Shown one piece after another: positions 10,484 to 55,930 of a stretch of DNA of 64,000 bases. The notes below the pieces were generated by a model. That model had not been told where the DNA came from, did not search any database, and saw only the letters and a program-made list of their open reading frames with translations. This DNA is from Chloroflexota bacterium. GTDB lineage: Bacteria; Chloroflexota; UBA11872. The stretch lies in the NCBI GenBank assembly GCA_022820025.1, contig JAJEGF010000078.1, forward strand, positions 1 through 64,000, given 5' to 3'. Position 1 is the stretch's first letter; each line of letters starts with the position of its first letter. The translations under genes were made by a program, and so were the position numbers.

Positions 10484-10744
10484 ATGGGCGTCAGAACCGT
10501 GCGGCTGGACGACGAGGCCGAGCGAACCCTCGCTGCGGTCCGTAAGCGAACCGGCCTCACCATCTCGGAAGTGCTTAAGCGCGGTCTCCGCGCCTACGAC
10601 ATCGCGTCCCGCGAGGAAGCGGCTACCCGACCCTACGATGTGTATCGCCGACTCGATTTAGGATCCGGCGGCTATGCCGTGGCCCCGGCCAGGGACGCGA
10701 AGGCCGCGATAGCCGAGGTAATCACCGCGAAGCACCGACGGTGA
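10484..10744 (+). CDS. VapB-like ribbon-helix-helix antitoxin
   Basis: This encodes 86 residues. Residues 2-40 fit a ribbon-helix-helix DNA-binding fold (VRTVRLDDEAERTLAAVRKR strand-helix, then LTISEVLKRGLRAYD). The variable C-terminal half (PYDVYRRLDLGSGGYA) would wrap the toxin. The stop codon overlaps the toxin start as GTGA, the usual coupling for this type of pair. The two palindromes upstream are the likely autoregulatory site. In this family the antitoxin neutralises a PIN-domain RNase and represses its own operon. Confidence 0.75.
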   Translation: MGVRTVRLDDEAERTLAAVRKRTGLTISEVLKRGLRAYDIASREEAATRPYDVYRRLDLGSGGYAVAPARDAKAAIAEVITAKHRR

Positions 10745-11154
10745 TTCTGGTCGATACCGGCCCGGTAGTCGCGCTGTTCGATCCCGCCGACGCCGACCAT
10801 CAGCGCTGCGTCGATGTCCTGCGGACGGTCGAGCAGCCAATGGCAACAACCGTGCCCGTCCTCACTGAATCATTTCACCTCTTGCAGCCGGCCAGCGTGG
10901 GCGCGCAACGCCTCATGGATTTTCTGGCCGACGATGGCCTGCGAGTTCTCTTCCTGGATGACGAGGATTTGGCGCGCGCATTCCAGCTCATGGCGCGGTA
11001 CGCGGATGCGCCGATGGACTTGGCTGACGCCTCGCTGGTTGTACTGGCGGAGCGGTTGGAACTGCAAGAGATCTTTACCTTCGACCGCAGTCACTTCTAC
11101 GCCTATCGCATTCAACGCGGCCACCGGCATCTGGCGTTTGAGCTGGTCGGCTAG
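10741..11154 (+). CDS. VapC-like PIN-domain toxin ribonuclease
   Basis: This encodes 137 residues, starting at a GTG that overlaps the antitoxin stop. The PIN-domain acidic set is visible: Asp5 (ILVDTGP), Glu43 (LTESFH), Asp96 (MDLADASLV) and Asp115 (TFDRSHF). All four are present, so the nuclease site looks intact. PIN toxins of this group cleave tRNA or rRNA when freed from the antitoxin. In this setting, inside the phage head module, it could stabilise the cargo segment or act against other phages; both are inferences. Confidence 0.8.
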   Translation: MILVDTGPVVALFDPADADHQRCVDVLRTVEQPMATTVPVLTESFHLLQPASVGAQRLMDFLADDGLRVLFLDDEDLARAFQLMARYADAPMDLADASLVVLAERLELQEIFTFDRSHFYAYRIQRGHRHLAFELVG

Positions 11155-11239
11155 GCGCAGAAGTCCGGGCAAGACCACGTGCTGTGATTCAGGGCCACCA
11201 ATGTTCCCGCGGCCCGGCGCCAGCGTCCGTCGGCTCGCT

Positions 11240-11698
11240 CTAGCTTCTCGCCGCCCGCCGCAATCCCTCAATGTCGATCTTTGACATCTCCAGCAGCGCC
11301 TCCGTCACCGCCTGGGGCGCCGGCGCCATGATCTCCGAGAGTCCGGCCGGAATGACCTGCCACGACAGGCCGAACTGGTCCACAAGCCAGCCGCACGGCT
11401 GCGTCTGACCGCCGTCCGATAGCCGCTCCCAGTAGTAGTCGATCTCGTCCTGTGCCTCACACTCCACCACAAACGAGACCGCCGGCGTAAAGCTGTACAT
11501 CGGCCCGCCGTCCACCGCGCCGAATCGCTGACCGTCAAGCTCGAACTCCACGATCGCATCGTCTTCGGCTGGGCCGGCCGCGATCTTCTGCACGTGCAGG
11601 ACCCTCGAGTTCGGAAAGATCGACACGTAAAACCTCGCGGCTTCCTCGGCCCGGCCGTCGAACCACAGAAACGGGTGAATTCTGGAAATCGATGACAT
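11240..11698 (-). CDS. VOC-family protein (PhnB-like)
   Basis: This encodes 152 residues, the normal length for a PhnB/3-demethylubiquinone methyltransferase-like VOC protein. The N-terminus has RIHPFLWFDGRAEEAARFYVSIF, then a FELDGQRFGAVDGGP strand and a C-terminal GWLVDQFGLSWQVIP, all typical of the group. The two beta-alpha-beta-beta-beta modules form a dimer with a metal or ligand site; substrates are mostly unknown. A GGGAGAAGG sequence lies upstream of the ATG. It is convergent with vapC, which ends 85 nt away. Confidence 0.8.
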   Translation of the reverse strand: MSSISRIHPFLWFDGRAEEAARFYVSIFPNSRVLHVQKIAAGPAEDDAIVEFELDGQRFGAVDGGPMYSFTPAVSFVVECEAQDEIDYYWERLSDGGQTQPCGWLVDQFGLSWQVIPAGLSEIMAPAPQAVTEALLEMSKIDIEGLRRAARS

Positions 11699-42782: not shown

Positions 42783-42817
42783 ACTGCGCCGGATCAGGTT
42801 CGACGGGGTACCGACGA

Positions 42818-43666
42818 ATGGCGCACATCGGCGTGTTCTACAGCGAAGGCTTTGATCCCGGCGCCTATAGCGTGGCGTTGTATCACGCGCAGTTGGAGGC
42901 GGCGCGGGGCGCGCACCGGCTGAGCATTCACCAGTTTCCCGAGGGCTCGCTGGCGGATGCCGCCGAGCGCGCGCCGGAGGTGGACGGCTTGCTGGCGTTC
43001 GCCACGGGAGCGGCGGACCTGGAATTCCTGCGCGGGCACTCGCGACCGTCGGTGGTGTGCGAGCGCGTCGCGCCCGGCTGTGCGTGGGTGGCTCCGGACA
43101 ATCACGACATTGGGGGCACGGCGGCCCGGCATCTGCTGGACCTGGGACACGAGCGGCTGGCGGTAGTGCTGCCGGGCGACCCCGCAAACCTGGATAGCTA
43201 TCACGGCTCCCGCTTCGCCGGGGTTCGGGACACGGCCGCAGCGGCCGGCCATCCGCTGGACGACGCGGACATCTACTTTGGCGCGAAGGTGGAGACCACC
43301 GGCCAGGACGCGGCCGAGGCCATGCTGGCGCGGGGCGACCTGCCGGACGCCATCTACTTGCAGAACATGCCCATGGCGCTGGCGGCGCTGCGGACGCTGA
43401 CGCAGGCGGGCGTGGCTGTTCCGGACGACGTTTCAGTGCTTGGGACCACGTTCATCCAGCTCAATGCGCCGGCGGCTACCGATCACACCACGCCGCCAAT
43501 GACGGCGGTGACCTTCGAGAAAGAGGAGATGGGCCGGCAGGGCGTGGCTTACCTGGCCGCCGCCGCCGAAGGCCGGACGAATGAGCGCCTGGAAGTGCTG
43601 TTGCCGGGGGTGCTGGTTCCAGGCAAGTCAACGTCCGAGGCTCGGACTGCAGCGATGATTACCTGA
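42818..43666 (+). CDS. LacI-family effector-binding domain without DNA-binding domain
   Basis: This encodes 282 residues. The ATG at 42818 starts directly with the first strand of a periplasmic-binding-protein fold (HIGVFYSEGFDPGAY). Typical LacI/GalR core features follow: the HDIGGTAARHLLDLGHERLAV segment, a RFAGVRDTAA segment, and VPDDVSVLGTTF near the end. The helix-turn-helix and hinge that should precede the core are missing, and no signal peptide is present, so it is probably a cytoplasmic sugar sensor or a truncated regulator. The upstream frame only overlaps the MFS gene antiparallel in content and shows no HTH. Function as a regulator is not supported. Confidence 0.7.
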   Translation: MAHIGVFYSEGFDPGAYSVALYHAQLEAARGAHRLSIHQFPEGSLADAAERAPEVDGLLAFATGAADLEFLRGHSRPSVVCERVAPGCAWVAPDNHDIGGTAARHLLDLGHERLAVVLPGDPANLDSYHGSRFAGVRDTAAAAGHPLDDADIYFGAKVETTGQDAAEAMLARGDLPDAIYLQNMPMALAALRTLTQAGVAVPDDVSVLGTTFIQLNAPAATDHTTPPMTAVTFEKEEMGRQGVAYLAAAAEGRTNERLEVLLPGVLVPGKSTSEARTAAMIT

Positions 43667-44186: not shown

Positions 44187-46349
44187 TTAGTCGGCGGGCT
44201 GTCGCTGGAGGACCGGCCGCCGCAGGGACTGCGGAAGCGGCGGCCCGACGAAGCCTTCCTCCTGCAGCCGGTGTCCCAGCTTGAGAGCCAGCGAGCGGCC
44301 GATGCCCAGTTCACGCGCCAACTGGTCGGGCGTGACGCTGTCGTGGCGCATCACCAGTTCGGTGGCTTCCACGAAGATCTCGTCCTCCTCGTCCTCCTCC
44401 GACTGCTGAAGTTCCTGCCTGGACACCTGGTTGGGCTCGCCCTGGTCACGCCAGTGCTGGACTACCGCGCGAACTTCCTCGTCGGTTACGCGGGCGCCCT
44501 GAATGCGCTGCGCCTTGCCGCCCTCCGGCGGTGCGTAGAGCATGTCGCCGCGCCCAATAAGCCGCTCGGCACCGGCGCTATCCAGCACGGTGCGCGAGTC
44601 GGCCTGGCTGCTGACCATGAAGGAGATACGGGTGGGGAAGTTGGCCTTGATCAGGCCGGTAATCACGTCTACCGACGGGCGCTGGGTGGCGATGACCAAG
44701 TGGATGCCGGTGGCGCGCGCCATCTGCGCCAAGCGCGCCAGGAGCCGCTCCACGTCGCCGGGGGCCGTCATCATCAGGTCAGCCAGTTCGTCGATCACGA
44801 CCACGATGTTGGGCAGCGGGCCGTCCGAGTCCTCCGGCGGGGCCGCGTTGTAGGACGCCAGGTTGCGCACGCCAGCCTTGCTGAACGTGCGGTAGCGGCG
44901 GGCCATCTCGTTGCTGACCCAGGTCAGCACGTCCACGACCTCGTTGACGTCGGTGACTACCGGCATGCGCAGGTGCGGGATGCCCTCGAACGCCACCAGT
45001 TCGACCATCTTGGGGTCGATCAGAACGAACTGCATTTCCTCGGGCGTCTTGTTGAACATGATGCCGGTGATGAACGAGGTCAGGCAGACCGACTTGCCGG
45101 ACCCAGTGGCGCCGGCGATCAGGACGTGCGGCATCCTGGCCAGGTCGGCGACGCGCACGTTGCCGGCGACGTCCTGGCCAAGCGCGACTTTGATGTCCGA
45201 GTCGGACGAGGCCCAGGTCTGGCTCTCCATGACCTCGCGCAGCGTGACCACCGCCGGGTTGTCGTTGGGCGTCTCCAGCCCCACGAACGGCTGCCCGGGC
45301 ACCGGGGCTTCGATGCGTACGCTGCGGGCGGCCAGCTTCAGGGCCAGGTCGTTGGCCAGCGCGGTGATGCGCGCGACCTTGACGCCCGGGCCCGGCTCCA
45401 GGAGGTATTGGGTCACGACGGGCCCTGGCACGGCTTCGGCAACCCTGACCTGCACCTTGAAGGATTCCAGGGTCTCCTCGATCGAGGCGGCCTTGCTGAC
45501 GATCTCGTCTTCCGGAACCTCGCCGGAATCCTCGGCGGGGAGCAATAGCTCCATGCCCGGCAGCTGCCAGCGGCCTTCCTGCTGCGGGGGCGCGGCGGCG
45601 GCCGGCATCCGGTCGGCGACGCGAATCAGCGGCTGCTGGCCCCAGGCCGGCCCTTCGCCGGCGTCGTCTTCCAACGATGCGTCCTCAGAGTCCGGCCGCG
45701 CCTGGTCGGCGCTCTCGTGGGCGTCCGCCTGCTGAGCCGGCGAAAACCATGGCCGCGCCCGGGTATTGGCGGCGGCAATCACCGACATCAAACCGACGCC
45801 CAGGTAGCGCGTGGCCCGGATGACTACGCGCCCGGGTCGCATCACGGTTTCGGTGCCCCACGGAGACGCGGCCATGCCGTAGGCAAGAGCCAGGACAGCG
45901 GCCGCGGCCAGCACCAGGAACGCGGGAACGGCGCCAATCGCTGTGCGAATGGCCGACCCGATGAGCCCGCCGATCACGCCGCCGCCGCCAGGCTGTCCCT
46001 GGTTGGCGACGGCGGCGGCCAGATCGGTCATTGCCGCCAGCGCCGCCACGAACACGGCCGCCGCCACGAAGTGGGTGACGTCGATGATGGCCCGCCGACG
46101 TGCGCCGGCGACCAGCACGGCCACACCAATCAGCGCGCCCGCCAATGCGCCCAACGGCGCGGCACGGCCCACACCGGCGGCCACGGTTGCGGCGGCGCCC
46201 GTCACGACCAAGGCGTCGTCGACGACCAGGCCAACGAACGAAAGCAGGCCGAAGGCGGCCACGATGAAGCCGCCAAAGCCCGCAATGTCCCAATGTTCGG
46301 GCCGCGTCGCGCGCGCAGGCAGCGCGGCGGCCTTTCGGCTCGTGGCCAC
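44187..46349 (-). CDS. ftsK: FtsK/SpoIIIE DNA translocase
   Basis: This encodes 720 residues from a GTG with AGGAGGG 6 nt upstream. It pumps chromosomal DNA at the division septum during segregation and dimer resolution. The N-terminus has four transmembrane helices, followed by an acidic linker (about 210-260). The motor has the alpha/beta domains with Walker A in LIAGATGSGKSVCL and Walker B in IVVVIDELADLMM. The C-terminal gamma winged helix (TELVMRHDSVTPDQLARELG, ending in HRLQEEGFVGPP) would read KOPS-type DNA signals. It is the last gene of the core cluster, 41 nt after RNase J. Confidence 0.93.
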   Translation of the reverse strand: MATSRKAAALPARATRPEHWDIAGFGGFIVAAFGLLSFVGLVVDDALVVTGAAATVAAGVGRAAPLGALAGALIGVAVLVAGARRRAIIDVTHFVAAAVFVAALAAMTDLAAAVANQGQPGGGGVIGGLIGSAIRTAIGAVPAFLVLAAAAVLALAYGMAASPWGTETVMRPGRVVIRATRYLGVGLMSVIAAANTRARPWFSPAQQADAHESADQARPDSEDASLEDDAGEGPAWGQQPLIRVADRMPAAAAPPQQEGRWQLPGMELLLPAEDSGEVPEDEIVSKAASIEETLESFKVQVRVAEAVPGPVVTQYLLEPGPGVKVARITALANDLALKLAARSVRIEAPVPGQPFVGLETPNDNPAVVTLREVMESQTWASSDSDIKVALGQDVAGNVRVADLARMPHVLIAGATGSGKSVCLTSFITGIMFNKTPEEMQFVLIDPKMVELVAFEGIPHLRMPVVTDVNEVVDVLTWVSNEMARRYRTFSKAGVRNLASYNAAPPEDSDGPLPNIVVVIDELADLMMTAPGDVERLLARLAQMARATGIHLVIATQRPSVDVITGLIKANFPTRISFMVSSQADSRTVLDSAGAERLIGRGDMLYAPPEGGKAQRIQGARVTDEEVRAVVQHWRDQGEPNQVSRQELQQSEEDEEDEIFVEATELVMRHDSVTPDQLARELGIGRSLALKLGHRLQEEGFVGPPLPQSLRRPVLQRQPAD

Positions 46350-46390
46350 GGGAGGCCCTCCTCAGGTGCGAACTGTCGCCCGCCCCTTAG

Positions 46391-48067
46391 CTAGACCTCA
46401 GTGACGATCGGCAAAATGACCGGTCGCCGCCGGGTCTCCCGGAACAAACGCCTCCCGAGTGCGTTCCGGATCTTCCTCTGTAGATGTTCGGGGGATACGT
46501 CCGCATGGTCGCCAGTGTCCACCACCGACAGCACGGTGTCGCGCGCACGCGTCAGCAACTCGTCCTGAGCATCCGACGCGTACACAAATCCCCTTGTGAT
46601 GATATCCGGGTCTGTCAAGCATTGACCAGTGTGACGGTCGACGTTGACAACGGTAATCACGAGGCCGCCTTCCGCCAGGTGCTGACGGTCGCGAATAGTG
46701 GCGTCGCTCTCCTCGCCGACGGTGAGTCCGTCAACGTAGACGTTGCTCACGTCGGTCTCGCCGACCACGCCGATGTCGTCCGCGGATAGCTCCACGATGT
46801 TCCCGGACTCGGCCACCAGCACGTGCTCGGCGTCTACACCGACACGCTCCGCCAGGCGCCGGTGCTCCTCCAGGTGCCGGAACTCGCCGTGGACCGGCAT
46901 GAAGAACTTGGGCTGAAGGGCGCTGAGCATGTACTTGAGGTCTTCCTGCCCGGCGTGGCCGGAAACGTGGACAGGGAGCAGACGCTCGTAGAGCACGCGG
47001 GCGCCCTGCCGCGCCAGCCGGTCAATCGTCTGGTTGACGGCCTCTTCGTTGCCGGGAATGGCCGAGGCCGAGACCACCACCGTGTCGTCGGGCAGCAGGT
47101 CAATGAACCGATGGTCGCGGTTGGCCATCCGCACCAGCGCGGAGCGCGGCTCGCCCTGCGAGCCGGTGCAGATGACGGCCAGTTCATCCGCCGGGTAATC
47201 CCGCAGGTCGCGCGGGTCAACTTCCATGGCGTCGTCGGGCACGTGCAGATAGCCGAGGTCGCGGGCCACCCGCACGTTGCGCTCCATGCTGCGCCCCACG
47301 AAGGCCACACGGCGCCCGTAGGCATAGGCGGCGTCGATGACCTGCTGCACACGGGAGATTAGCGACGAGAAGGTGGCGACGATGATGCGGCCGGGCGCGT
47401 CGTTGAAGACCCGGTCGAAGGACTCGGCAATCACCGCCTCGGACGGCGTATGGCCGGGCTGGTCGGCGTAGGTGCTGTCGGACATCAGCAGCAGCACGCC
47501 GTCGTCCCCCAGGCGGCCCAGGGTCTGGAAGTCCGGGGGGATTCCGTCCACCGGCGTGTGGTCGATCTTGAAGTCGCCGGTATGCACGATGGTTCCGATG
47601 GGCGTCTGGATAGCGATGCCCATGGCGTCGGGGATGCTGTGGCAGACGTGAAAGAACTGGCAGCGGAAAGGGCCGACGGTGATGGTCTCGCGCGCTTTGA
47701 CCACGCGCAGGTCCGCCTGATCGCGCAGGCCCGGCTCTTCCAGCTTCACGCCGACCAATCCGAGCGTGAGCTTGGAGCCGTAGATCGGCAGATTGAACTC
47801 GCGCAGGGCGTAAGGCAGCGCCCCGATGTGATCTTCATGGCCGTGGGTGATGACAAAGGCGCGCAGCTTGTGCCGGATTTCGCGCAGGTAGTTGAAGTTC
47901 GGCAGTACGAGATCGACGCCCAACATGCCGGCGTCGGGGAAGGTGATGCCGCAGTCGAGCACGATGGCGTCGTCGCCATACTCGATCACGGTGCAGTTCT
48001 TGCCGATTTCGCCAATGCCGCCAAGAGAGACGACGCGCACGACCTCGGCTGGAGATTCGCGTGTCAT
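46391..48067 (-). CDS. rnj: Ribonuclease J
   Basis: This encodes 558 residues, near the family length of about 555. It is a 5'-3' exo- and endoribonuclease in mRNA decay and RNA maturation. The ATG at 48067 is used; a TTG at 48100 would overlap the udg stop. The metallo-beta-lactamase motifs are visible: HGHEDHIGA (His75, His77, Asp79, His80), a conserved DHTPVDG loop, the beta-CASP segment with CTGSQGEPRSAL and the HVSGHAGQEDL motif, and a C-terminal domain with TEV end. It is followed by ftsK and preceded by udg. Confidence 0.92.
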   Translation of the reverse strand: MTRESPAEVVRVVSLGGIGEIGKNCTVIEYGDDAIVLDCGITFPDAGMLGVDLVLPNFNYLREIRHKLRAFVITHGHEDHIGALPYALREFNLPIYGSKLTLGLVGVKLEEPGLRDQADLRVVKARETITVGPFRCQFFHVCHSIPDAMGIAIQTPIGTIVHTGDFKIDHTPVDGIPPDFQTLGRLGDDGVLLLMSDSTYADQPGHTPSEAVIAESFDRVFNDAPGRIIVATFSSLISRVQQVIDAAYAYGRRVAFVGRSMERNVRVARDLGYLHVPDDAMEVDPRDLRDYPADELAVICTGSQGEPRSALVRMANRDHRFIDLLPDDTVVVSASAIPGNEEAVNQTIDRLARQGARVLYERLLPVHVSGHAGQEDLKYMLSALQPKFFMPVHGEFRHLEEHRRLAERVGVDAEHVLVAESGNIVELSADDIGVVGETDVSNVYVDGLTVGEESDATIRDRQHLAEGGLVITVVNVDRHTGQCLTDPDIITRGFVYASDAQDELLTRARDTVLSVVDTGDHADVSPEHLQRKIRNALGRRLFRETRRRPVILPIVTEV

Positions 48068-48092
48068 AGGTGAAGTTCCGGGTTCTGTTGCG

Positions 48093-48719
48093 TCAGGCAA
48101 AAAGTGAGAGTTGCTGCGTATCGGGCGGTGGCGGTGGGTCGGGTTCGACCTCGGTCGCGTCGGCCAGCAGCTTGGGGATCATCTGAAAGTCTTGCGACAG
48201 GATGTCGCGCAGCCGTAGTTGGCGCAGCGCCGCCGCCGGATGGTAGACGGGCAGGTACACCCGCCCGTTCAGCCGCCGCGCCACGCCGCGAGCCCGCGAG
48301 ATGCGCGCCTCGGGAAAGAACGCGTTCAAGGCGTGACGACCCAAGAGAACGATCAAGTCGGGATTGATCAACGCCAACTGCTGCTCCAGATAGGGACGGC
48401 AGGCTTCCGCCTCGTCCGGCAGCGGGTCGCGGTTGTTGGGCGGGCGGCACTTCAAGACGTTGGCGATGAACACGTCCGCCCGGCGCATGCCGATGCCCTG
48501 GATCAACTCGTCCAGCAACTGCCCGGCCTGGCCCACGAACGGACGGCCCAGCCGGTCCTCGTGAAAGCCCGGACCCTCGCCGATGAAGACGACGCGGGCC
48601 GTCGGTGAGCCCTCGCCGGGGACCGCGTTGTTTCGGCCGCGGTGCAAGCCGCACCGCTCACAGGTCCGAACGACAGACGCGAGGCTGGTGAGGTCAGGAA
48701 AAGTCGGAAGGCCGATCAC
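48093..48719 (-). CDS. Uracil-DNA glycosylase, family 4 (Fe-S)
   Basis: This encodes 208 residues. It removes uracil from DNA. The four cysteines of the iron-sulfur cluster are present: TCERCGL (Cys20, Cys23), VLKCRPPNNRDP and EACRPYL. The family-4 motifs GEGPGFHEDRLGRPFVG and YHPAAALR (the final His motif) are intact. The last residues QQLSLFA contain a QLSLF-type sequence that fits the beta-clamp-binding motif QL(S/D)LF, suggesting docking to the replisome sliding clamp. It lies between dapA (3 nt apart) and rnj in the core operon, an unusual position for this gene. Confidence 0.9.
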   Translation of the reverse strand: MIGLPTFPDLTSLASVVRTCERCGLHRGRNNAVPGEGSPTARVVFIGEGPGFHEDRLGRPFVGQAGQLLDELIQGIGMRRADVFIANVLKCRPPNNRDPLPDEAEACRPYLEQQLALINPDLIVLLGRHALNAFFPEARISRARGVARRLNGRVYLPVYHPAAALRQLRLRDILSQDFQMIPKLLADATEVEPDPPPPPDTQQLSLFA

Positions 48720-48722
48720 GCG

Positions 48723-49640
48723 CTACGCATGCACCGCGGCGGGCTGGAGGAAGGCGTCGAGTTCGTAGAGGTCGAGCACCGACTTCAGGTCGTCCTGCAT
48801 GTCGGCGGGAAACTCGATCAACGGGGAGCGTGGGACGCCCACCGAAAAACCGCTGAGGTTCACGGCGGCCTTGACGGCGATGGGGTTGGGCCAGCCGGCG
48901 GGAAACAGCGCTCGAGCGATCGGCAACAGGTGCAGATGCTTCTGGCGCGCCGTTTCGAGGTCGCCTTCCACGAAGGCGTCGATCATGTCGCGGGTTTCAC
49001 CGCTCACGACGTGCGACTGGACGCTGACCACGCCAACGCCGCCCAACGCCATGAGCAGGTAGGTGTCGCTGTCGTTGCCGCTGTAGATGTCGAATCCGTC
49101 CTCGGCCGTGCGGGCGATCTCCGCGATCTGGTCGAAGTCGCCGCTGGCCTCCTTGACGGCCACGATGTTGTCCACGGCGCTCAGGCGCGCCACCGTGTCG
49201 GCGGTCATGTTCAGGCTGGTGCGGGCCGGCACGTTGTAGAGCATGTTGGGCAGCGGGGTGGCCTCCGCGATCGTCTCGAAATGGAGGACCAGCCCGTCCT
49301 GGGGCGGCTTGTTGTAGTAGGGCGTGACTTGCAGGAGGCCGTGCACGCCGATCTCGGCGGCCTCGCGCGACAGGTGCACGCTCTCGGTGGTGTTGTAGCC
49401 GCCGGTTCCGGCGATCACCAGGGCGCGGTCGCCTACCGCCGATAGGGCCTCGCGGTAGAGCTGAAAGCGCTCGTCGTCGCTGAGCACCGGGGATTCGCCG
49501 GTGGTGCCGGTGACGACGACCGCGTCGTTGCCGGCATCGACGAGTCCGGAGACGAGGCGTCCGAACGTGTCGTAGTCCACCGAGCCGTCATCGGCGAATG
49601 GGGTGATCACCGCGGTAATGAGCCGGCCAAAGGTCAACAT
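48723..49640 (-). CDS. dapA: 4-hydroxy-tetrahydrodipicolinate synthase
   Basis: This encodes 305 residues. It condenses pyruvate with aspartate semialdehyde in the lysine/diaminopimelate pathway. The motifs are canonical: GTTGES near residue 45, YYNKPPQDG, the proton-relay segment YNVPARTSLN, and the Schiff-base Lys in IVAVKEASGD. The GYNTTESVHL segment is typical. The gene lies 3 nt before udg and downstream of two membrane-protein genes and asd. With dapB and asd it supplies precursors for lysine and peptidoglycan. Confidence 0.93.
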   Translation of the reverse strand: MLTFGRLITAVITPFADDGSVDYDTFGRLVSGLVDAGNDAVVVTGTTGESPVLSDDERFQLYREALSAVGDRALVIAGTGGYNTTESVHLSREAAEIGVHGLLQVTPYYNKPPQDGLVLHFETIAEATPLPNMLYNVPARTSLNMTADTVARLSAVDNIVAVKEASGDFDQIAEIARTAEDGFDIYSGNDSDTYLLMALGGVGVVSVQSHVVSGETRDMIDAFVEGDLETARQKHLHLLPIARALFPAGWPNPIAVKAAVNLSGFSVGVPRSPLIEFPADMQDDLKSVLDLYELDAFLQPAAVHA

Positions 49641-49771
49641 GGGACAGCCTCCGCCCGCGACCGTACGAATGGCCGCGATACGCCGTGCTGTAAGGGCTGA
49701 TTGTACCTAGCGAGTGCGAACGCCCTCGCCGCGTGGGGAAGGCGACGTTCGGATGGACGCAGTTGGAAGTG

Positions 49772-50182
49772 CTAGGCGGACGTCGGTGTGCTCGCTGTCA
49801 CGGACTGTCGGGGATGGTCGGCCGGTTCGTCGCCTGTCTCGAGAGATGTTGGCTGGGCAGGCAGATCGCCCGTCGGTCGGGTGCGCTCTTCAATGCGGGA
49901 CAGGGTGGCCAGCATGGCCTGTTGGGTAGCTTCCAGTCGCCCGACGGTTTGAGCGATTTCGTACTGACGCGCCTCAAACGTGACCATGCGGGCGTCCATT
50001 CGGTCCATACGAGCATCCATACCGTCCATGCGGGCACTCAGACGCTCTTCCATAGCGTCCATGCGATCACCTGAACGGCTATCAAGCCGCAACATCAGGC
50101 CGACAAGGGCGCCGGCGGTGGCCAGGCCGCCCACCACTAGCGTCGCGCCAACGCTCAGGATGCCGACCAACTCGGCGCTCAT
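49772..50182 (-). CDS. Small membrane protein with coiled-coil repeats
   Basis: This encodes 136 residues. One N-terminal hydrophobic helix (VGILSVGATLVVGGLATAGALVGLML) is followed by Met/Asp/Arg heptad-like repeats (RMDAMEERLSARMDGMDARM) of a coiled coil, then a disordered Thr/Pro tail. The layout recalls small coiled-coil membrane-anchored proteins seen near many genes. It is a plausible structural or trafficking factor. No family function is known. It lies between the 50307 gene and dapA. Confidence 0.6.
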   Translation of the reverse strand: MSAELVGILSVGATLVVGGLATAGALVGLMLRLDSRSGDRMDAMEERLSARMDGMDARMDRMDARMVTFEARQYEIAQTVGRLEATQQAMLATLSRIEERTRPTGDLPAQPTSLETGDEPADHPRQSVTASTPTSA

Positions 50183-50306
50183 GGCGAGGGGTCGTTCGTT
50201 CCCGTGCGCGATTCAACGGGGCGACTCTAGCACGACGTCATCCGCCCTCCGTTTGACGGTGCGAGAGCCGGCGCGGCCAACGGCGCGCTGAACCGCGGGT
50301 ACCGCC

Positions 50307-51131
50307 CTACCAGTTAACGCGGCGGCTGAAGTAGCGGTGCCAGCGGCGCCAGACGCCCTTGCCGTAGAAGGCCTCTTCCTGGCGCTCGATGATGACGGCT
50401 TCGGTCGTGAGAATCTGCGAGGCCAAACCAGCGGCGTTGTAAGGACTGAGCGCCTTGAGGATGTCGGGGAAGGCGGAGCGCCACAGCGAGCGAAACAGCA
50501 AGAGCCCAAGGGCCAACAGGAACAGCACCGGCACCGCACTGGACTCGCGCAGATACGGGGTCAGCGCCAGCAGCAGCGGAGCCAGCATGGCGACCCACAG
50601 GAGGATTTCGACCTGCGCGTTGATTCGCCGCGTACGGCGACGGTGGGCAAAGGAATAGGGCGCGCGCTGCCGCTCGAACCGCGCCCGCTCCAGCAAGGCC
50701 AGGCCGGCGCCCATGACGCCGAACACGGCCGATATGGCCAGGCCGGCGGCAATGAGAACGCCGCCCGGCGTTCCGACCGGCGGGCCCTCGCGCTCTCGCG
50801 GAATCTGCTCTTCGGCCACGGCCCGGCTGCCTTTGCCTTCCGGGTCGATCAGTAACTCGACCACGCCCGTCGCGACAATCATGACGATGAAGAGTGCCAA
50901 GGCCGCCAGGACAACCCCCATGCCGGCCAGAAAACCGGACTTCAGGAGATCGAGCGTAGGAGTTCGAGCCGCGCGAATCTCCTCCAGGTAGATATCCAAC
51001 TCTTCCTGGGATGCCTCCGGCGACATGCCGGCCCGCACCAGCGCCTGCTGGGCCTGGCGGTAGTCGTCGCGCCGGTCCGCCGGACGCCGAACCTCGCGCC
51101 ACCATGTCTGAATCGAGTACACCAGCGCCAT
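50307..51131 (-). CDS. Multi-span membrane protein, hypothetical
   Basis: This encodes 274 residues. About four to five hydrophobic helices are visible: GFLAGMGVVLAALALFIVMI, GVLIAAGLAISAVFGVMGAGL, ILLWVAMLAPLLLAL and AVPVLFLLALGLLLF. The N-terminus is soluble with a helical segment (DDYRQAQQALVRAGMS). The C-terminal soluble part (TEAVIIERQEEAFYGKGVWRR) is cytoplasmic. The gene lies within the rpsO-to-ftsK block but has no clear relation to its neighbours. No family is recognised. Confidence 0.6.
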   Translation of the reverse strand: MALVYSIQTWWREVRRPADRRDDYRQAQQALVRAGMSPEASQEELDIYLEEIRAARTPTLDLLKSGFLAGMGVVLAALALFIVMIVATGVVELLIDPEGKGSRAVAEEQIPREREGPPVGTPGGVLIAAGLAISAVFGVMGAGLALLERARFERQRAPYSFAHRRRTRRINAQVEILLWVAMLAPLLLALTPYLRESSAVPVLFLLALGLLLFRSLWRSAFPDILKALSPYNAAGLASQILTTEAVIIERQEEAFYGKGVWRRWHRYFSRRVNW

Positions 51132-51196
51132 GGCCCCATCCTAGCCGGGCCACGATCAGCCTATGGACTACGACTGGCCGCTGGCAGACCTCCGGC

Positions 51197-52216
51197 TCAG
51201 ACCAGCCCCTGCTCGATCATCGACTCGGCGATCTGGAGCGAGTTGGTGGCCGCGCCCTTGCGCAGGTTGTCGGAGACGACCCAGAAGACCAGGCCGTTGG
51301 GATGCGACATGTCCTGCCGAAGGCGGCCGACCCAGGTGGTGTCGTTGCCTTCGGCGGTCATGGGCATGGGGTAGACCTCGGCGGCCAGGTCGTCCACGAT
51401 CTCGACGCCCGGGACGTCTTCCAGCAGCGAGCGGGCGAGATCGGCGTCGATCGGATCGCTGAACTCGGCGTGAACGGCAGCCGAATGCGCCCGGAACACC
51501 GGCACGCGCACGCAGGTCGCGGACACGGCCAAGTCTGGGATGTGCATGATCTTGCGCGTCTCCGCCGAGACCTTCCACTCCTCCTTGGAGTAGCCGTCGT
51601 CGCGCGGATCGTCGATGGACGGGATCAGGTTGGAGGCGATCTGGTGCGGAAACACGTCCGGCGTCAACTCGGCGCCGTTGGACATGGCGGCGCTCTGCTC
51701 GGCCAGTTCCTCCATCGCCATGCCGCCCGCGCCGGATACCGACTGGTACGTGTCGGCAATCACACGCCGCACCGGGCTGTGCTCGTGCAGCGGCGCCAGC
51801 ACCTGGACAATCGGCGTCGTCGAGCAGTTGGGAATCGCCACGATGCCCTTGTGCTCCTGGAGATCCTCAGCGTTGACCTCGGGAACCACCAGCGGCACGT
51901 CGTCGTCGTAGCGGAAGGCGGAACTGTCGTCGATGGCGATGACCCCGGCGGCGGCGACCCGCGGCGCCACGGCTCGGCTGATGGAGCCCGACGCCGAGAT
52001 CAGCACGAAGTCCAGGCCCGAGAAATCGCTGTCGTCGTCCAGCACCATCACGGTGTGGGACTCGCCGTTGAATTCGATCTGCTTGCCGCGACTGCGCGCC
52101 GAGGCCCACAGGCGCAACTCACCAACCGGGAAGTTGCGCTCTTCCATCACGCTCAGGAACTCGCGGCCCACGGCGCCCGTGGCGCCAACAACCCCGATAC
52201 CAAAACTGCGGCTCAT
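51197..52216 (-). CDS. asd: Aspartate-semialdehyde dehydrogenase
   Basis: This encodes 339 residues. It reduces aspartyl phosphate to aspartate semialdehyde with NADPH. The N-terminal motif GVVGATGAVGREFLSVM binds the cofactor. The catalytic cysteine is in the family signature IPNCSTTPIVQVL, and the active-site His is in RVPVFRAHSAAVHAEF. The gene overlaps dapB as ATGA, so translation is coupled. Together with dapB and dapA it feeds lysine and diaminopimelate synthesis. Confidence 0.94.
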   Translation of the reverse strand: MSRSFGIGVVGATGAVGREFLSVMEERNFPVGELRLWASARSRGKQIEFNGESHTVMVLDDDSDFSGLDFVLISASGSISRAVAPRVAAAGVIAIDDSSAFRYDDDVPLVVPEVNAEDLQEHKGIVAIPNCSTTPIVQVLAPLHEHSPVRRVIADTYQSVSGAGGMAMEELAEQSAAMSNGAELTPDVFPHQIASNLIPSIDDPRDDGYSKEEWKVSAETRKIMHIPDLAVSATCVRVPVFRAHSAAVHAEFSDPIDADLARSLLEDVPGVEIVDDLAAEVYPMPMTAEGNDTTWVGRLRQDMSHPNGLVFWVVSDNLRKGAATNSLQIAESMIEQGLV

Positions 52217-53004
52217 GCGTCGTCTCTTTCCTCAAAGAGCAGGTGCTCAAGGCCTATGACCAGGCCGGGCAAGTCTCGCACCCGGCGGGCTGCCATCAAC
52301 ACGCCGGGCATAAACGAATCACGGCTCGTGGAGTCATGGCGAATGGTGAGCGTCTGGCCCAGCGCGCCGAAGATGACCTCCTGGTGGGCCACGAATCCCG
52401 GCAGGCGCACGCTATGCACGCGCACGCCGTGGTTCACGCCGCCGCGCACTCCCGGCAGGGTGAAGCGCTCGGTGGGCGCGTCGATGGACGCCCGGCCGTC
52501 GCGCGCCTGGGCGATCAGCTCAGCCGTGTGGGCGGCCGTGCCCGAGGGCGCGTCGATCTTCTGATCGTGGTGAAGCTCAATCACCTCAACGTGGTCCAGG
52601 TGCGGCGCGGCCAGTTGCGCCATCGCCATCATTAACACCGCGCCAATGGCGAAGTTGGGGGCGATAAAAGCGCCCACGCCCGCGCGCTCGGCGGCCGAAC
52701 GAATAGCCTCGAGCTGGTCGGGGGTCATCCCCGTGGTTCCGATAACGGGTGAAACGCCGGCCGCAATGGCCATCAGTGCGTTCTCCGCCGCCGCGTCGGC
52801 CACGGTGAAGTCAATGGCGACATCAGGGCTTGTCTCGCGAATGGCCGTTTCCACGTCGGTAAACCAGGGGAAATCCGTGTCCCGATGCATTCGGTTGACG
52901 CCCGCCGCGAGTTCCATGTCGGGAGCGCCCTTCACGGCATCCACCACGGTCAGCCCCACGCGGCCTGAGGCCCCGAAAACGGCGACTCGCAACGGCGATC
53001 CCAT
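52213..53004 (-). CDS. dapB: 4-hydroxy-tetrahydrodipicolinate reductase
   Basis: This encodes 263 residues from the ATG at 53004 (a GTG immediately before it is an alternative), with GGAG upstream. It reduces the dapA product with NAD(P)H. The N-terminal Rossmann motif is VAVFGASGRVG. The signature EVIELHHDQKIDAPSGTA contains the catalytic His pair and Lys, and GVNHGVRVHSVRLPG is the substrate segment. It lies 12 nt after pnp and overlaps asd, so it is part of the core operon. Confidence 0.94.
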   Translation of the reverse strand: MGSPLRVAVFGASGRVGLTVVDAVKGAPDMELAAGVNRMHRDTDFPWFTDVETAIRETSPDVAIDFTVADAAAENALMAIAAGVSPVIGTTGMTPDQLEAIRSAAERAGVGAFIAPNFAIGAVLMMAMAQLAAPHLDHVEVIELHHDQKIDAPSGTAAHTAELIAQARDGRASIDAPTERFTLPGVRGGVNHGVRVHSVRLPGFVAHQEVIFGALGQTLTIRHDSTSRDSFMPGVLMAARRVRDLPGLVIGLEHLLFEERDDA

Positions 53005-53016
53005 CACAGCGCTCCT

Positions 53017-55287
53017 TTAGTCCCGGTAGCGGCCTCGTCGTGGTCCCCGACCGCCGCCGCCGCGTCCGCCCCGATCGTTCCGATCAAAGCGACCGCGCCC
53101 ACCGCGGCCACCGCGGCCATCGCGACCGCCGCCGTCACGGCGTGGGCCGCCGCGTCCGCCGCCGCGCGGGGCGGGGGCGGCGGTAGCCAGCGTTTCTTCG
53201 GGCGAAAGACCCATCAGCACGGCCCGCCGCGACAGGTTGACGCGGCCCTGGTCGTCGGTCTCGATCACCATCACCATGATGTCGTCGCCGACGTTGACCA
53301 CGTCCTCGATCATGCCGGGCGGCTCCTCGGCCAACTCGTGGCGCGGGACCAGGCCCTCGCGACCAGGCATGAACTCGACCATGGCGCCAAACCCGAAGAT
53401 GCGGGTCACCTTGCCAAGCATGGTGCGCCCGGCGTCGATTTCACCGGTCATGTCCCGGATCATCTGGACGGCCTGCTCGGCGCCTTCGCGCGACGGCGAG
53501 CCGACCATGATGGTGCCGTCTTCCTGGATGTCGATCGACGCGCCGGTGTCGGCTTCGAGCTGGCGAATCATGCGGCCGCCAGGGCCGATGACGCTGCCAA
53601 TGTTCTCGGGGTTGATCTGGGTTCGCATGATTTTGGGCGCGAACTCGCCCACCTCGGAGCGCGGAGCAGCCAGGGCGCCGTTCATGACTTCCAGGATCTT
53701 CATCCGCGCGTCGCGTCCGCGCCGGACGGCCAGTTCCACGATCTCCGGCGTCAGGTACTTGACCTTGATGTCCAGCTGGATGGCGGTAATGCCCTTCTCC
53801 GTGCCGGCCACCTTGAAGTCCATGTCGCCAAAGTGGTCTTCGGCGCCCTGGATGTCGGTCAGCACCTTGAACGCGCCGTTGTCGGACGTAACCAGGCCCA
53901 TGGAGATCCCCGCCACCGACGCGCTGATCGGCACGCCGGCGTCCAGCAGCGCCAGCGTGCTGCCGCAGGTGGAAGCCATGGAGGTCGATCCGTTGGACGA
54001 CAGAACCTCGGAGACCACGCGCATGGAATAGGGGAAGTCCTCATAGCTGGGGACCACCGGCAGCAGCGCGCGTTCGGCCAGGGCGCCGTGCCCGATCTCG
54101 CGCCGACGCGGCGAGCCGAGCCGGCCCGCCTCGCCGGAGGCGAAGGGCGGCATGTTGTAGTGGTGCATGTAGCGCTTGGGCTGGGCCAGTTCCTCAAGGT
54201 CGCGGAGACCGATCTTCTGCTCGTCGCGCTGGGTGCCCAGCGTCACGATCGAAAGCACCTGGGTCTCACCGCGCTCGAACAGGCCGGTGCCATGCGTGCG
54301 CGGGAGGATTCCCACGTCGGCGGATAGGTTCCGCAGCGCGTCGTCCGAGCGTCCATCCGGCCGGATGCCCTCGTCCACGATGGCTCGGCGCGTGTAGGCG
54401 CTCTCCAGGTCGTGGAAGGCCTCGCCGATGTCGCCGGCGTCGTGCTCGTCGGCGAAGGCTTCCGCGGCTTCGGCCTGGACCGCGGACAGCTTCTCGCTTC
54501 GTTCGGCGCGATCGGTTATGCGCGCGGCCTCGGCAATGATCGAGCCGAAGCGGCCGTCGACGGCTTCAAGAATCTCGTCGTCGAGCTTCTCAATCTTGAC
54601 GGCCCGCGGTTCGGGGTTGATGAGGTCGCGGAGTTCAAGTTGCAAGTCAATGGCGGCCTGCAACTGTTCCTGGCCCCAGGCGATGGCGCGGATCATCGTG
54701 TCGTCGTCGACCTCGCGGGCGCCGGCTTCCAGCATGACCACGCCGTCGCGGGTCCCGGACACGACCAGGTCCAGGTCGCCGCTGGCGTTCTCCTCAATGG
54801 TCGGGTTGAGCGTGAACTCACCGTCGCGCAGACCCACGCGTACCGCGCCCACCGGACCCTCGAACGGGATACCGGAAATCATCAGCGCGGCCGACGCGGC
54901 TATGGTGCCGATCACGTCGGTCTCGGCCGTGCCGTCGTGCGAGAGCACGGTCAGGATGATCTGCACCTCGTTGCGCATGCCCTTCGGGAAGAGCGGGCGC
55001 AGCGGGCGGTCGGTGAGCCGGGACGCCAGGATGCCGGTCAGCGGCGGCCGGCCCTCACGCCGGAACACGCTGCCCGGGATCTTGCCGATGGAATAGCTGC
55101 GCTCTTCGTAGTCCACGGAGAGCGGGAAATAGTCAATCCCCTCGCGCAGGCGGTCGGACATCACCACGGTGCCGAGAATCACGGCGTCGCCGTAGGTCAC
55201 CACGACGGCGCCATCCGCCTGCTGGGCCAAGCGGCCGGTCTCGAACGCGAGCCGGCGCCCCCCGAACTGGGTCTCAACGGTATGCAT
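53017..55287 (-). CDS. pnp: Polynucleotide phosphorylase
   Basis: This encodes 756 residues. It degrades RNA from the 3' end by phosphorolysis. The ATG at 55287 has GAGGAG 8 nt upstream. Two RNase PH domains with a helical linker are visible; the KH domain shows IGSVIGPGGRMIRQLEAD and the S1 domain LGKVTRIFGFGAMVEF. The C-terminal tail of about 50 residues is Arg/Gly-rich with RGG-type repeats, which is longer than usual and may bind RNA or partners. The gene follows rpsO, from which it is separated by a terminator-like hairpin. Confidence 0.95.
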   Translation of the reverse strand: MHTVETQFGGRRLAFETGRLAQQADGAVVVTYGDAVILGTVVMSDRLREGIDYFPLSVDYEERSYSIGKIPGSVFRREGRPPLTGILASRLTDRPLRPLFPKGMRNEVQIILTVLSHDGTAETDVIGTIAASAALMISGIPFEGPVGAVRVGLRDGEFTLNPTIEENASGDLDLVVSGTRDGVVMLEAGAREVDDDTMIRAIAWGQEQLQAAIDLQLELRDLINPEPRAVKIEKLDDEILEAVDGRFGSIIAEAARITDRAERSEKLSAVQAEAAEAFADEHDAGDIGEAFHDLESAYTRRAIVDEGIRPDGRSDDALRNLSADVGILPRTHGTGLFERGETQVLSIVTLGTQRDEQKIGLRDLEELAQPKRYMHHYNMPPFASGEAGRLGSPRRREIGHGALAERALLPVVPSYEDFPYSMRVVSEVLSSNGSTSMASTCGSTLALLDAGVPISASVAGISMGLVTSDNGAFKVLTDIQGAEDHFGDMDFKVAGTEKGITAIQLDIKVKYLTPEIVELAVRRGRDARMKILEVMNGALAAPRSEVGEFAPKIMRTQINPENIGSVIGPGGRMIRQLEADTGASIDIQEDGTIMVGSPSREGAEQAVQMIRDMTGEIDAGRTMLGKVTRIFGFGAMVEFMPGREGLVPRHELAEEPPGMIEDVVNVGDDIMVMVIETDDQGRVNLSRRAVLMGLSPEETLATAAPAPRGGGRGGPRRDGGGRDGRGGRGGRGRFDRNDRGGRGGGGRGPRRGRYRD

Positions 55288-55421
55288 ACAGGTCACTCCT
55301 CGCCGGCGGTCTGGACGAAGAGCGAAGAAGAGAGCCCGCAACCGGCGTTGCGCCCTCGGTTCTTGGCTCTTCCGTCAGGTCCCCCCGGCGTTCTGATCCG
55401 AAGCCGTCTACAACAACGAAA

Positions 55422-55448
55422 AGCGGTCCGGCTTCGGAGTGGACCGCT
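55422..55448 (-). terminator. Intrinsic terminator between rpsO and pnp
   Basis: On the minus strand, AGCGGTCC and GGACCGCT form an 8-bp stem with an 11-nt loop, followed by TTTTCGTTGTTG. It would end or attenuate rpsO transcription before pnp. It is the only hairpin I found in the window with a T-rich tail. Confidence 0.65.
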
Positions 55449-55515
55449 GATCAATCCGTGCGTGCTCGCCGCGCCTTGGGCGGCGGGCCGCATATCGCCT
55501 GGAATTCACGCGCCG

Positions 55516-55788
55516 TTAGCGCCGCGCTCGAATCTGGAGCTTGTCGATCACCTGCCGGTACCGTTCCGGGTCGCGATCCTGCAGGTACTTCAGGAGCCGC
55601 CGGCGACGGCCGACCATCTTGAGCAGTCCGTAACGGGAGTGTTTGTCCTTCTTGTGCTGCTTGAGATGTTCGGTGAGCTCTTCGATTCGGGCGCTGAGCA
55701 ACGCAATCTGCACCGGCGCCGAGCCGGTGTCGTCCGGGTTCAAGCGAAGCTCGCCTACGAGTTCGCGCTTGGGTGAGGTTACGACCAT
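55516..55788 (-). CDS. rpsO: Ribosomal protein S15
   Basis: This encodes 90 residues, the typical S15 length. It binds the 16S rRNA three-way junction during 30S assembly. The signature region [21 protein letters not shown] and [20 protein letters not shown] with LLKYLQ is intact. The ATG at 55788 is chosen by family alignment; the frame upstream is not conserved. Unusually there is no Shine-Dalgarno sequence; the bases immediately before the ATG read CACCTCCTT, the anti-Shine-Dalgarno sequence of 16S rRNA. In other bacteria S15 represses its own translation. It heads the rpsO-pnp cluster. Confidence 0.93.
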
Positions 55789-55797
55789 AAGGAGGTG
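55789..55797 (-). promoter_or_regulatory. Anti-Shine-Dalgarno-like sequence before rpsO
   Basis: The minus strand reads CACCTCCTT directly before the rpsO ATG. This equals the 3' end of 16S rRNA rather than its complement. It could pair with a GGAGG-type sequence in the same leader (GGGAGGCG at about 55854-55861) to form a control hairpin. Significance uncertain. Confidence 0.35.
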
Positions 55798-55930
55798 TCT
55801 GATCTCGCCGACCCTGCACGGGCCTTGGCGTAGCGGAAGGAAGGCGTTCAACGCGCCTCCCGGATGTCGCAAGTGTAGCGCACGGCACCTGGTTGTGGAC
55901 CGCATTTTCGCGGTGCGATGTACGACCGAG

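Follow-up and report, generated by a model that had tools for sequence, protein, structure and literature searches.

Gene organization of the locus

The DNA analyzed here, referred to as the window, is a stretch of 64,000 nucleotides from a Chloroflexota bacterium (assembly GCA_022820025.1, contig JAJEGF010000078.1, positions 1 to 64,000), corresponding to contig C64 of a 3.6 Mb host genome in 92 contigs. Our study is focused on positions 44187 to 55788, where the list of open reading frames (ORFs), combined with Pfam and NCBIfam searches, revealed eight core genes in the same direction, with two membrane-protein ORFs of 274 and 136 amino acids (aa) among them, in the order rpsO-pnp-dapB-asd-[two membrane ORFs]-dapA-udg-rnj-ftsK on the minus strand. 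These genes and their order had been proposed in an earlier reading of the sequence (hereafter, the original prediction), including dapB as a member of the block, and all the core genes gave strong matches to Pfam or NCBIfam families. The features are the following:

55516-55788, minus strand: rpsO, ribosomal protein S15, from the start of the 90-aa protein (Pfam PF00312, E 3e-34; TIGR00952 above cut-off)
53017-55341, minus strand: pnp, polyribonucleotide nucleotidyltransferase (TIGR03591, 881 bits, above cut-off)
52213-53007, minus strand: dapB (TIGR00036 above cut-off)
51197-52216, minus strand: asd, with a 4-base overlap with dapB (TIGR01296 above cut-off)
50307-51131, minus strand: 274-aa membrane ORF between asd and dapA, with a predicted N-terminal helical hairpin (residues 21-56) and four long helices
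49772-50182, minus strand: 136-aa membrane ORF, with an N-terminal hydrophobic segment, a variable zone of 7-residue repeats, a conserved coiled-coil stretch and a variable tail
49984-50036, minus strand: 21-base tandem repeat coding for the 7-residue repeat of the 136-aa ORF (TRF score 71; repeat family D1)
48723-49640, minus strand: dapA (TIGR00674 above cut-off)
48093-48719, minus strand: udg, family-4 uracil-DNA glycosylase (TIGR00758, 191 bits against a cut-off of 125.3)
46391-48100, minus strand: rnj, ribonuclease (RNase) J (TIGR00649 above cut-off)
44187-46349, minus strand: ftsK (Pfam FtsK_SpoIIIE, E 1e-62; FtsK_alpha)

The rpsO gene lies within a longer ORF (55516-55905), position 55788 being the start codon of the 90-aa S15 protein, and the starts of pnp (near 55287) and rnj are probably internal as well. 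A single copy above cut-off was found in the host genome for each of asd, dapA, rnj and pnp. No RNA element from Rfam was matched in the window at gathering scores.

Conservation of the block within Chloroflexota

The conservation of the block was studied in 61 genomes searched for asd by tblastn: 13 from the genus (host genome G000 included), 6 from the sister genus, 5 from the neighboring family, 17 from the class and 20 from the phylum. The genus and the sister genus together constitute the 19 genomes of the family; most of the genomes surveyed are metagenome-assembled, and G001 is a single contig. The order of the eight core genes was repeated in relatives. They were found in one run in 11 of the 13 genus genomes, being split in G001 and G005. 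In the sister genus, the run from rpsO to rnj was unbroken in five of six genomes (G017 was split), with ftsK located 2.9-5.4 kb past rnj in four of those five and not found in the stretch of G014 examined. The same run was present in the five genomes of the neighboring family, the contig of G023 ending within rnj, and ftsK accompanied it in four of them. The udg gene, taken for an insertion in the original prediction, stands between dapA and rnj in all 24 genomes of the family and order, split ones included, so that it has to be considered an old and regular member of the block rather than an insert.

Beyond the order, the block thins with distance. Neighborhoods were compared in 13 of the 17 other class genomes, leaving out four with no match or a weak match to asd (G034, G037, G038 and G040): dapB was near asd in the six genomes of class family f4, and asd was alone in the DNA examined in the seven of class family f3. 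Among the 11 neighborhoods compared from the 20 phylum genomes, three showed rpsO-pnp-dapB-asd-dapA, two rpsO-pnp-asd and one asd with dapA and dapB, with asd alone in the remaining five. The run rpsO-pnp-dapB-asd-dapA in three Chloroflexota genomes of two further families, G046 (f11), G047 and G059 (f12), resembles that of the window, but udg, rnj and ftsK were not seen in the stretch examined and no membrane ORFs were present at the asd-dapA joint, where the gap is 25 bases in G046 and 2 bases in G047.

The asd-dapA joint is a site of breaks and inserts

The spacing of the genes was measured in the 19 family genomes from the end of each gene to the start of the next tblastn match. In every genome measured, the pnp-dapB, dapB-asd and dapA-udg gaps were of 14 bases or less. 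The asd-dapA gap varied from 102 to 1654 bases (102-292 bases when no insert was present) and was broken in three genomes, G001, G005 and G017, in which both halves of the block were found elsewhere. These three breaks are not contig ends, since the DNA at those points runs on with other ORFs. In G001, the place after asd where dapA would be expected is occupied by two long ORFs (436 and 556 aa; locus L061, 10652-14148) that resemble tandem copies, with no Pfam match at E 0.001.

The joint also showed variation in genomes without the pair of membrane genes. It measures 285 bases in G002, a member of the genus in which neither of the two genes is present there. Among the sister-genus genomes, G013 and G015 have a short joint (102 or 292 bases), that of G017 is broken, and a different insert extends it to approximately 1.04 kb in G014, G016 and G018. 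This insert encodes a 159-aa ORF preceded by a small ORF, which has 129 aa in G014 and 88 aa in the other two genomes; when two copies of the 159-aa ORF were compared with the Pfam family Asp_protease_2, the G016 copy passed the cut-off and the G014 copy fell just under it. With its small ORF and the aspartyl-protease-like ORF that follows, the insert spans positions 10576-11308 of locus L065, 9773-10628 of L066 and 5681-6413 of L093. Another protease-like ORF that passes the Pfam cut-off was observed in the genome of the window (L138, 5627-5989). In addition, an 831-aa ORF in the opposite direction, with no Pfam match at E 0.001, lies between rnj and ftsK in a sister-genus genome (L093, 9983-12478).

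Five of the six rearrangement events counted in the family were located at the asd-dapA joint (three breaks and two inserts, with one further insert at rnj-ftsK), which is one of seven joints; the corresponding P value of 2e-3 is rough, because the count was made post hoc, with the data already known, and because neither length nor overlap is the same for all joints.

Distribution and history of the two membrane-protein genes

The genes for the 274-aa and 136-aa proteins were found together at the asd-dapA joint in 10 of the 13 genus genomes (G000, G003, G004 and G006-G012) and in none of the six sister-genus or the five neighboring-family genomes, so the pair is not part of the block as conserved in the order. 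The description of the two genes as insertions in the original prediction thus holds. The 274-aa gene was detected in 12 of 41 genomes, all of them from the genus (12 of 13), with no match in the 6 sister-genus, 5 neighboring-family and 17 class genomes; the only genus genome without a match, G002, is 76% complete. A scan of genome contigs with the alignment of the orthologues matched 11 loci, which are again those of G001 and G003-G012 and add no evidence of their own. In G005, the 274-aa gene follows asd, dapA-udg-rnj-ftsK lies on another contig, and no 136-aa gene was found beside the 274-aa gene. In G001, the 274-aa gene (0.83 Mb) lies apart from both asd (1.64 Mb) and dapA-udg-rnj-ftsK (0.87 Mb).

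The gene beyond ftsK provides a landmark for the history of this region:

42806-43666, plus strand: LacI-type ligand-binding-domain protein, convergent with ftsK (Peripla_BP_3, E 1e-27)

No DNA-binding domain was found for this protein in the stretch tested. The LacI-type gene adjoins ftsK in G002, G003 and G005 and lies near the 274-aa gene in G001, marking the ancestral neighbor beyond ftsK; two tandem matches to the protein were observed in G005. Comparison of G001 with the window at the DNA level revealed the same order and orientation for the 274-aa gene, the LacI-type gene and the sequence past it. Most simply, the order asd-274-dapA-udg-rnj-ftsK-LacI would have been present in the common ancestor of G001 and the clade of the window, and G001 would have lost both core halves from that place. 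The identity between G001 and the window was 69% for the 274-aa protein, 80% for asd, 82% for dapA, 77% for udg, 78% for rnj and 70-79% for two pieces of ftsK. The 274-aa gene is thus retained in G001 away from the block. In G002, the LacI-type gene comes right after ftsK and the 274-aa gene is missing; this genome was outermost in a tree of pnp, dapB and asd, with a low support of 0.47, and either a gene loss or an earlier branching would account for its state.

The 274-aa protein

Copies of the 274-aa gene free of internal stops, with 69-100% identity, were found in 12 of the 13 genus genomes, host included. The ratios of nonsynonymous to synonymous substitution rates (dN/dS) were 0.04, 0.04, 0.07 and 0.06 in comparison with G003, G009, G010 and G007, respectively, against 0.02-0.08 for asd and 0.03 for dapA; values for rpsO were not used because some rows include a non-conserved upstream extension of the ORF. 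The intact frames and the dN/dS values of 0.04-0.07 indicate that this ORF is a real gene. Mean column identity across the 12 orthologues was 93%.

The hydropathy profile shows four hydrophobic regions. An AlphaFold2 model built from 22 sequences, with a mean predicted local distance difference test score (pLDDT) of 74.6, contains a confident helical hairpin at residues 21-56 and predicts long helices at 59-95, 122-154, 172-189 and 199-228, followed by further helices. Comparison of this model with the PDB by Foldseek gave 22 matches with E values up to 10, none of them at 0.001 or better. No Pfam or NCBIfam family was matched at E 0.001, and no match was obtained with PADLOC.

The hairpin motif is shared by paralogues with 24-29% identity, of which the host genome has three in tandem on contig C34 and two on contig C74. 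The C34 array (L094, 6004-10429) includes a shorter ORF between the paralogues that appears related by eye, and the two adjacent distant relatives on C74 (L095, 8098-10045) lie downstream of an ORF that reads as ATPase-like from its sequence. Tandem arrays of these paralogues were matched in other genomes of the genus too.

The 136-aa protein

A counterpart of the 136-aa gene was present at the joint in 10 of the 13 genus genomes, the frame of G012 ending at 92 aa. Searches with this protein also gave matches away from the joint, for a total of 18 of 41 genomes, the matches outside the genus being weak; these represent relatives at other places. Its hydropathy profile shows one N-terminal hydrophobic segment. 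Measured from one fixed anchor point to the other in ten genomes, the repeat zone varied from 6 to 63 residues; it has 31 residues in the window and 6 in G006, the asd sequence of which is 99% identical. The dN/dS values in comparison with G003, G009, G010 and G007 (0.34, 0.25, 0.41 and 0.20, respectively) are higher than those of the 274-aa gene and point to fast evolution, but they are rough, as the repeats are hard to align.

No Pfam family was matched by the 136-aa ORF at E 0.001. An assignment to the sll1863 family of stress response proteins (NF052504) was rejected, with 20.3 bits against a cut-off of 35, and so was a role in defense, the PADLOC matches (the best one to DruG, E 5e-5; ZorA, E 0.002) being taken as coiled-coil likeness. 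The N-terminal motif of the protein is found in relatives beside other genes: one on contig C48, between ORFs that read as cysteine-desulfurase-like and FtsY-like from their translations, and another in G001, between ORFs likewise read as ABC-transporter-like. Among plasmid records, there was one weak match, obtained for a paralogue of the 136-aa family.

A probable permissive joint between two conserved gene units

The spacing and the breakpoints argue for a locus formed by two conserved units separated by a permissive joint that holds lineage-specific passengers, an interpretation that we consider probable. According to it, this order of Chloroflexota would have two co-directional units placed one after the other, rpsO-pnp-dapB-asd and dapA-udg-rnj-ftsK, with most joints within the units being tight in the family and a looser asd-dapA joint that tolerates breaks and inserts. 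The 274-aa gene, encoding a putative four-helix membrane protein, and the 136-aa gene would have settled in this joint in the ancestor of some members of the genus, and there they may be co-transcribed with the block. The 274-aa protein, a member of a tandem-expanded family, probably acts at the membrane, with its N-terminal hairpin as a candidate interaction module, and the 136-aa protein may be a length-variable spacer or oligomerization protein.

Several observations weigh against this interpretation. With a gap of 109-214 bases in the family, the rpsO-pnp joint is loose too and yet was never broken, and the rnj-ftsK joint takes inserts of 2.9-5.4 kb in the sister genus. The splits in G005 and G017 could be assembly errors. 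Promoter- and terminator-like sites were found near the shuffle mean, and the existence of two units therefore rests on spacing and breakpoints and not on transcripts. The asd-dapA joint is occupied in two of two Bacillota records by dapG, which belongs to the pathway; this speaks for a permissive joint and, at the same time, against regarding everything located there as a passenger. Finally, selection on the 274-aa gene is comparable in strength to that on asd and dapA, and the gene is found at the joint in 10 of 13 genus genomes and adjoins asd in G005, so that a tie to the block is possible.

Such a tie was the proposal of the original prediction, which regarded both membrane proteins as candidates for a role in the process of their neighbors; this process would be either lysine/diaminopimelate (DAP) and cell-wall precursor supply or RNA decay. 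The position of the 274-aa gene at the joint in 10 genomes and beside asd in an eleventh, its strong purifying selection, the shared direction of the pair and the block, and the presence of dapG at the same joint in Bacillota are in line with this proposal. It has to be noted, however, that the pair is absent from the joint in G002 and in all 11 genomes of the sister genus (6 of 6) and neighboring family (5 of 5), which retain asd, dapA, udg and rnj, that the 274-aa gene persists in G001 away from both halves, and that paralogues of both proteins are found among seemingly unrelated genes. Such an absence in relatives is the outcome that the original prediction had named as contradicting the candidacy. 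The comparison of neighborhoods thus does not support it, and we consider a function in the process of the block unlikely. Because close relatives lack the pair at the joint, its position by itself says little about function. A more specific version, in which the 136-aa protein would tether RNase J and PNPase to the membrane, draws on the two RNases encoded in the block and on RNase Y, whose N-terminal region (PF12072) consists of a membrane segment followed by a coiled coil. The 136-aa ORF has the same architecture and gave a sub-threshold match to RNase_Y_N (E 0.009), no other domain being matched, but its 15.9 bits are far under the gathering score of 32 and other coiled-coil families score alike. 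Furthermore, G005, G001 and G002 possess rnj and pnp with no 136-aa gene beside the block, the repeat length differs between near relatives, and the same N-terminal motif occurs beside other genes; a tether of this kind seems very improbable. A similarly low probability is assigned to a scheme in which the 136-aa protein would be a membrane-anchored coiled-coil spacer, tuned in length by slippage of the 21-base repeat, that would form together with the 274-aa protein a lineage-specific membrane scaffold positioning the enzymes of the block.

The recurrence of inserts and breaks at one joint might also reflect an integration hotspot with the pair as mobile cargo. The 274-aa gene lies between the arms of one imperfect inverted repeat (20 nt, 80%), one of them within asd; this repeat was taken as chance. 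No tRNA gene was found in the 42-57 kb region, though, and the ORFs tested from the window and from the G014 and G016 inserts match no recombinase or transposase family. Viral contigs contained no relatives of the 136-aa protein; no search of viral or plasmid collections was made with the 274-aa gene. Mobile cargo appears to us an improbable origin for the pair.

The permissive joint thus remains our preferred explanation, and it calls for caution in reading function from gene neighborhood: a strongly selected gene may stand in a core block across a clade perhaps only because an operon joint is permissive. The locus also brings to light an expansion, in these Chloroflexota, of a membrane-protein family without a Pfam or NCBIfam match, as well as a coiled-coil gene in which the number of repeats differs from one near relative to another.

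Comparison with the block in other phyla

For comparison outside the phylum, we opened four chromosome-like records of a plasmid collection, a biased sample since they were picked for close-lying or annotated matches. These records (NZ_CP083716.1, NZ_CP089998.1, NZ_LR134457.1 and NZ_CP081497.1; L140-L143) are filed as plasmids and hold core genes such as rpsO, pnp, dapA and ftsK. A literature search found no direct statement of the gene order of the block, the passages available from PMC6925170 being gene lists only; according to passages of another study, thyX, rpsO, pnp and dapB of Streptomyces lie in one syntenic region and spoIIIE and rnj in another (PMC13118837).

The same relative order was found in the four Bacillota and Actinomycetota records. 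On the other hand, in the five Pseudomonadota records listed for both pnp and asd (Aeromonas, Shinella and three Sinorhizobium, not a systematic sample) the two genes are at least ~289 kb apart, the records being taken as circular. An observation against a terrabacterial origin comes from Acetoanaerobium, which we take to be a member of Bacillota and in which ~194 kb separate pnp from the best match to rnj. Altogether, the gene order is consistent with the terrabacterial ancestry put forward in the original prediction, as judged from this small sample.

Neither the 274-aa nor the 136-aa protein was matched in the stretches examined from Bacillus, Streptomyces and Tsukamurella. The resemblance to Bacillus that had been proposed was confirmed in Bacillus velezensis (NZ_CP083716.1), with rpsO-pnp-(5 genes)-asd-dapG-dapA-rnjB-(2 genes)-ftsK, and in Cytobacillus spongiae (NZ_CP089998.1), with asd-dapG-dapA-rnj-(2 genes)-ftsK in a record that begins downstream of rpsO-pnp. 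As in the window, asd, dapA, the RNase J gene and ftsK follow in the same order and direction, with rpsO-pnp upstream in B. velezensis. The Bacillota stretch differs from that of the window in lacking dapB and udg, in having dapG between asd and dapA and sporulation genes between pnp and asd, and in the ClpP-like and YlzJ-like genes that precede ftsK. The resemblance extends to Actinomycetota, where Streptomyces sp. BHT-5-2 (NZ_CP081497.1) has rpsO-pnp-dapB-dapA-rnj in ~10.4 kb by tblastn and Tsukamurella tyrosinosolvens (NZ_LR134457.1) has dapB-(5 genes)-dapA-rnj-(6 genes)-ftsK. In these two genomes, asd was unmatched in the stretches examined and ftsK does not adjoin rnj, and in Tsukamurella genes for thymidylate synthase and dihydrofolate reductase lie between dapB and dapA; nevertheless, both carry dapB within the block, as does the window.

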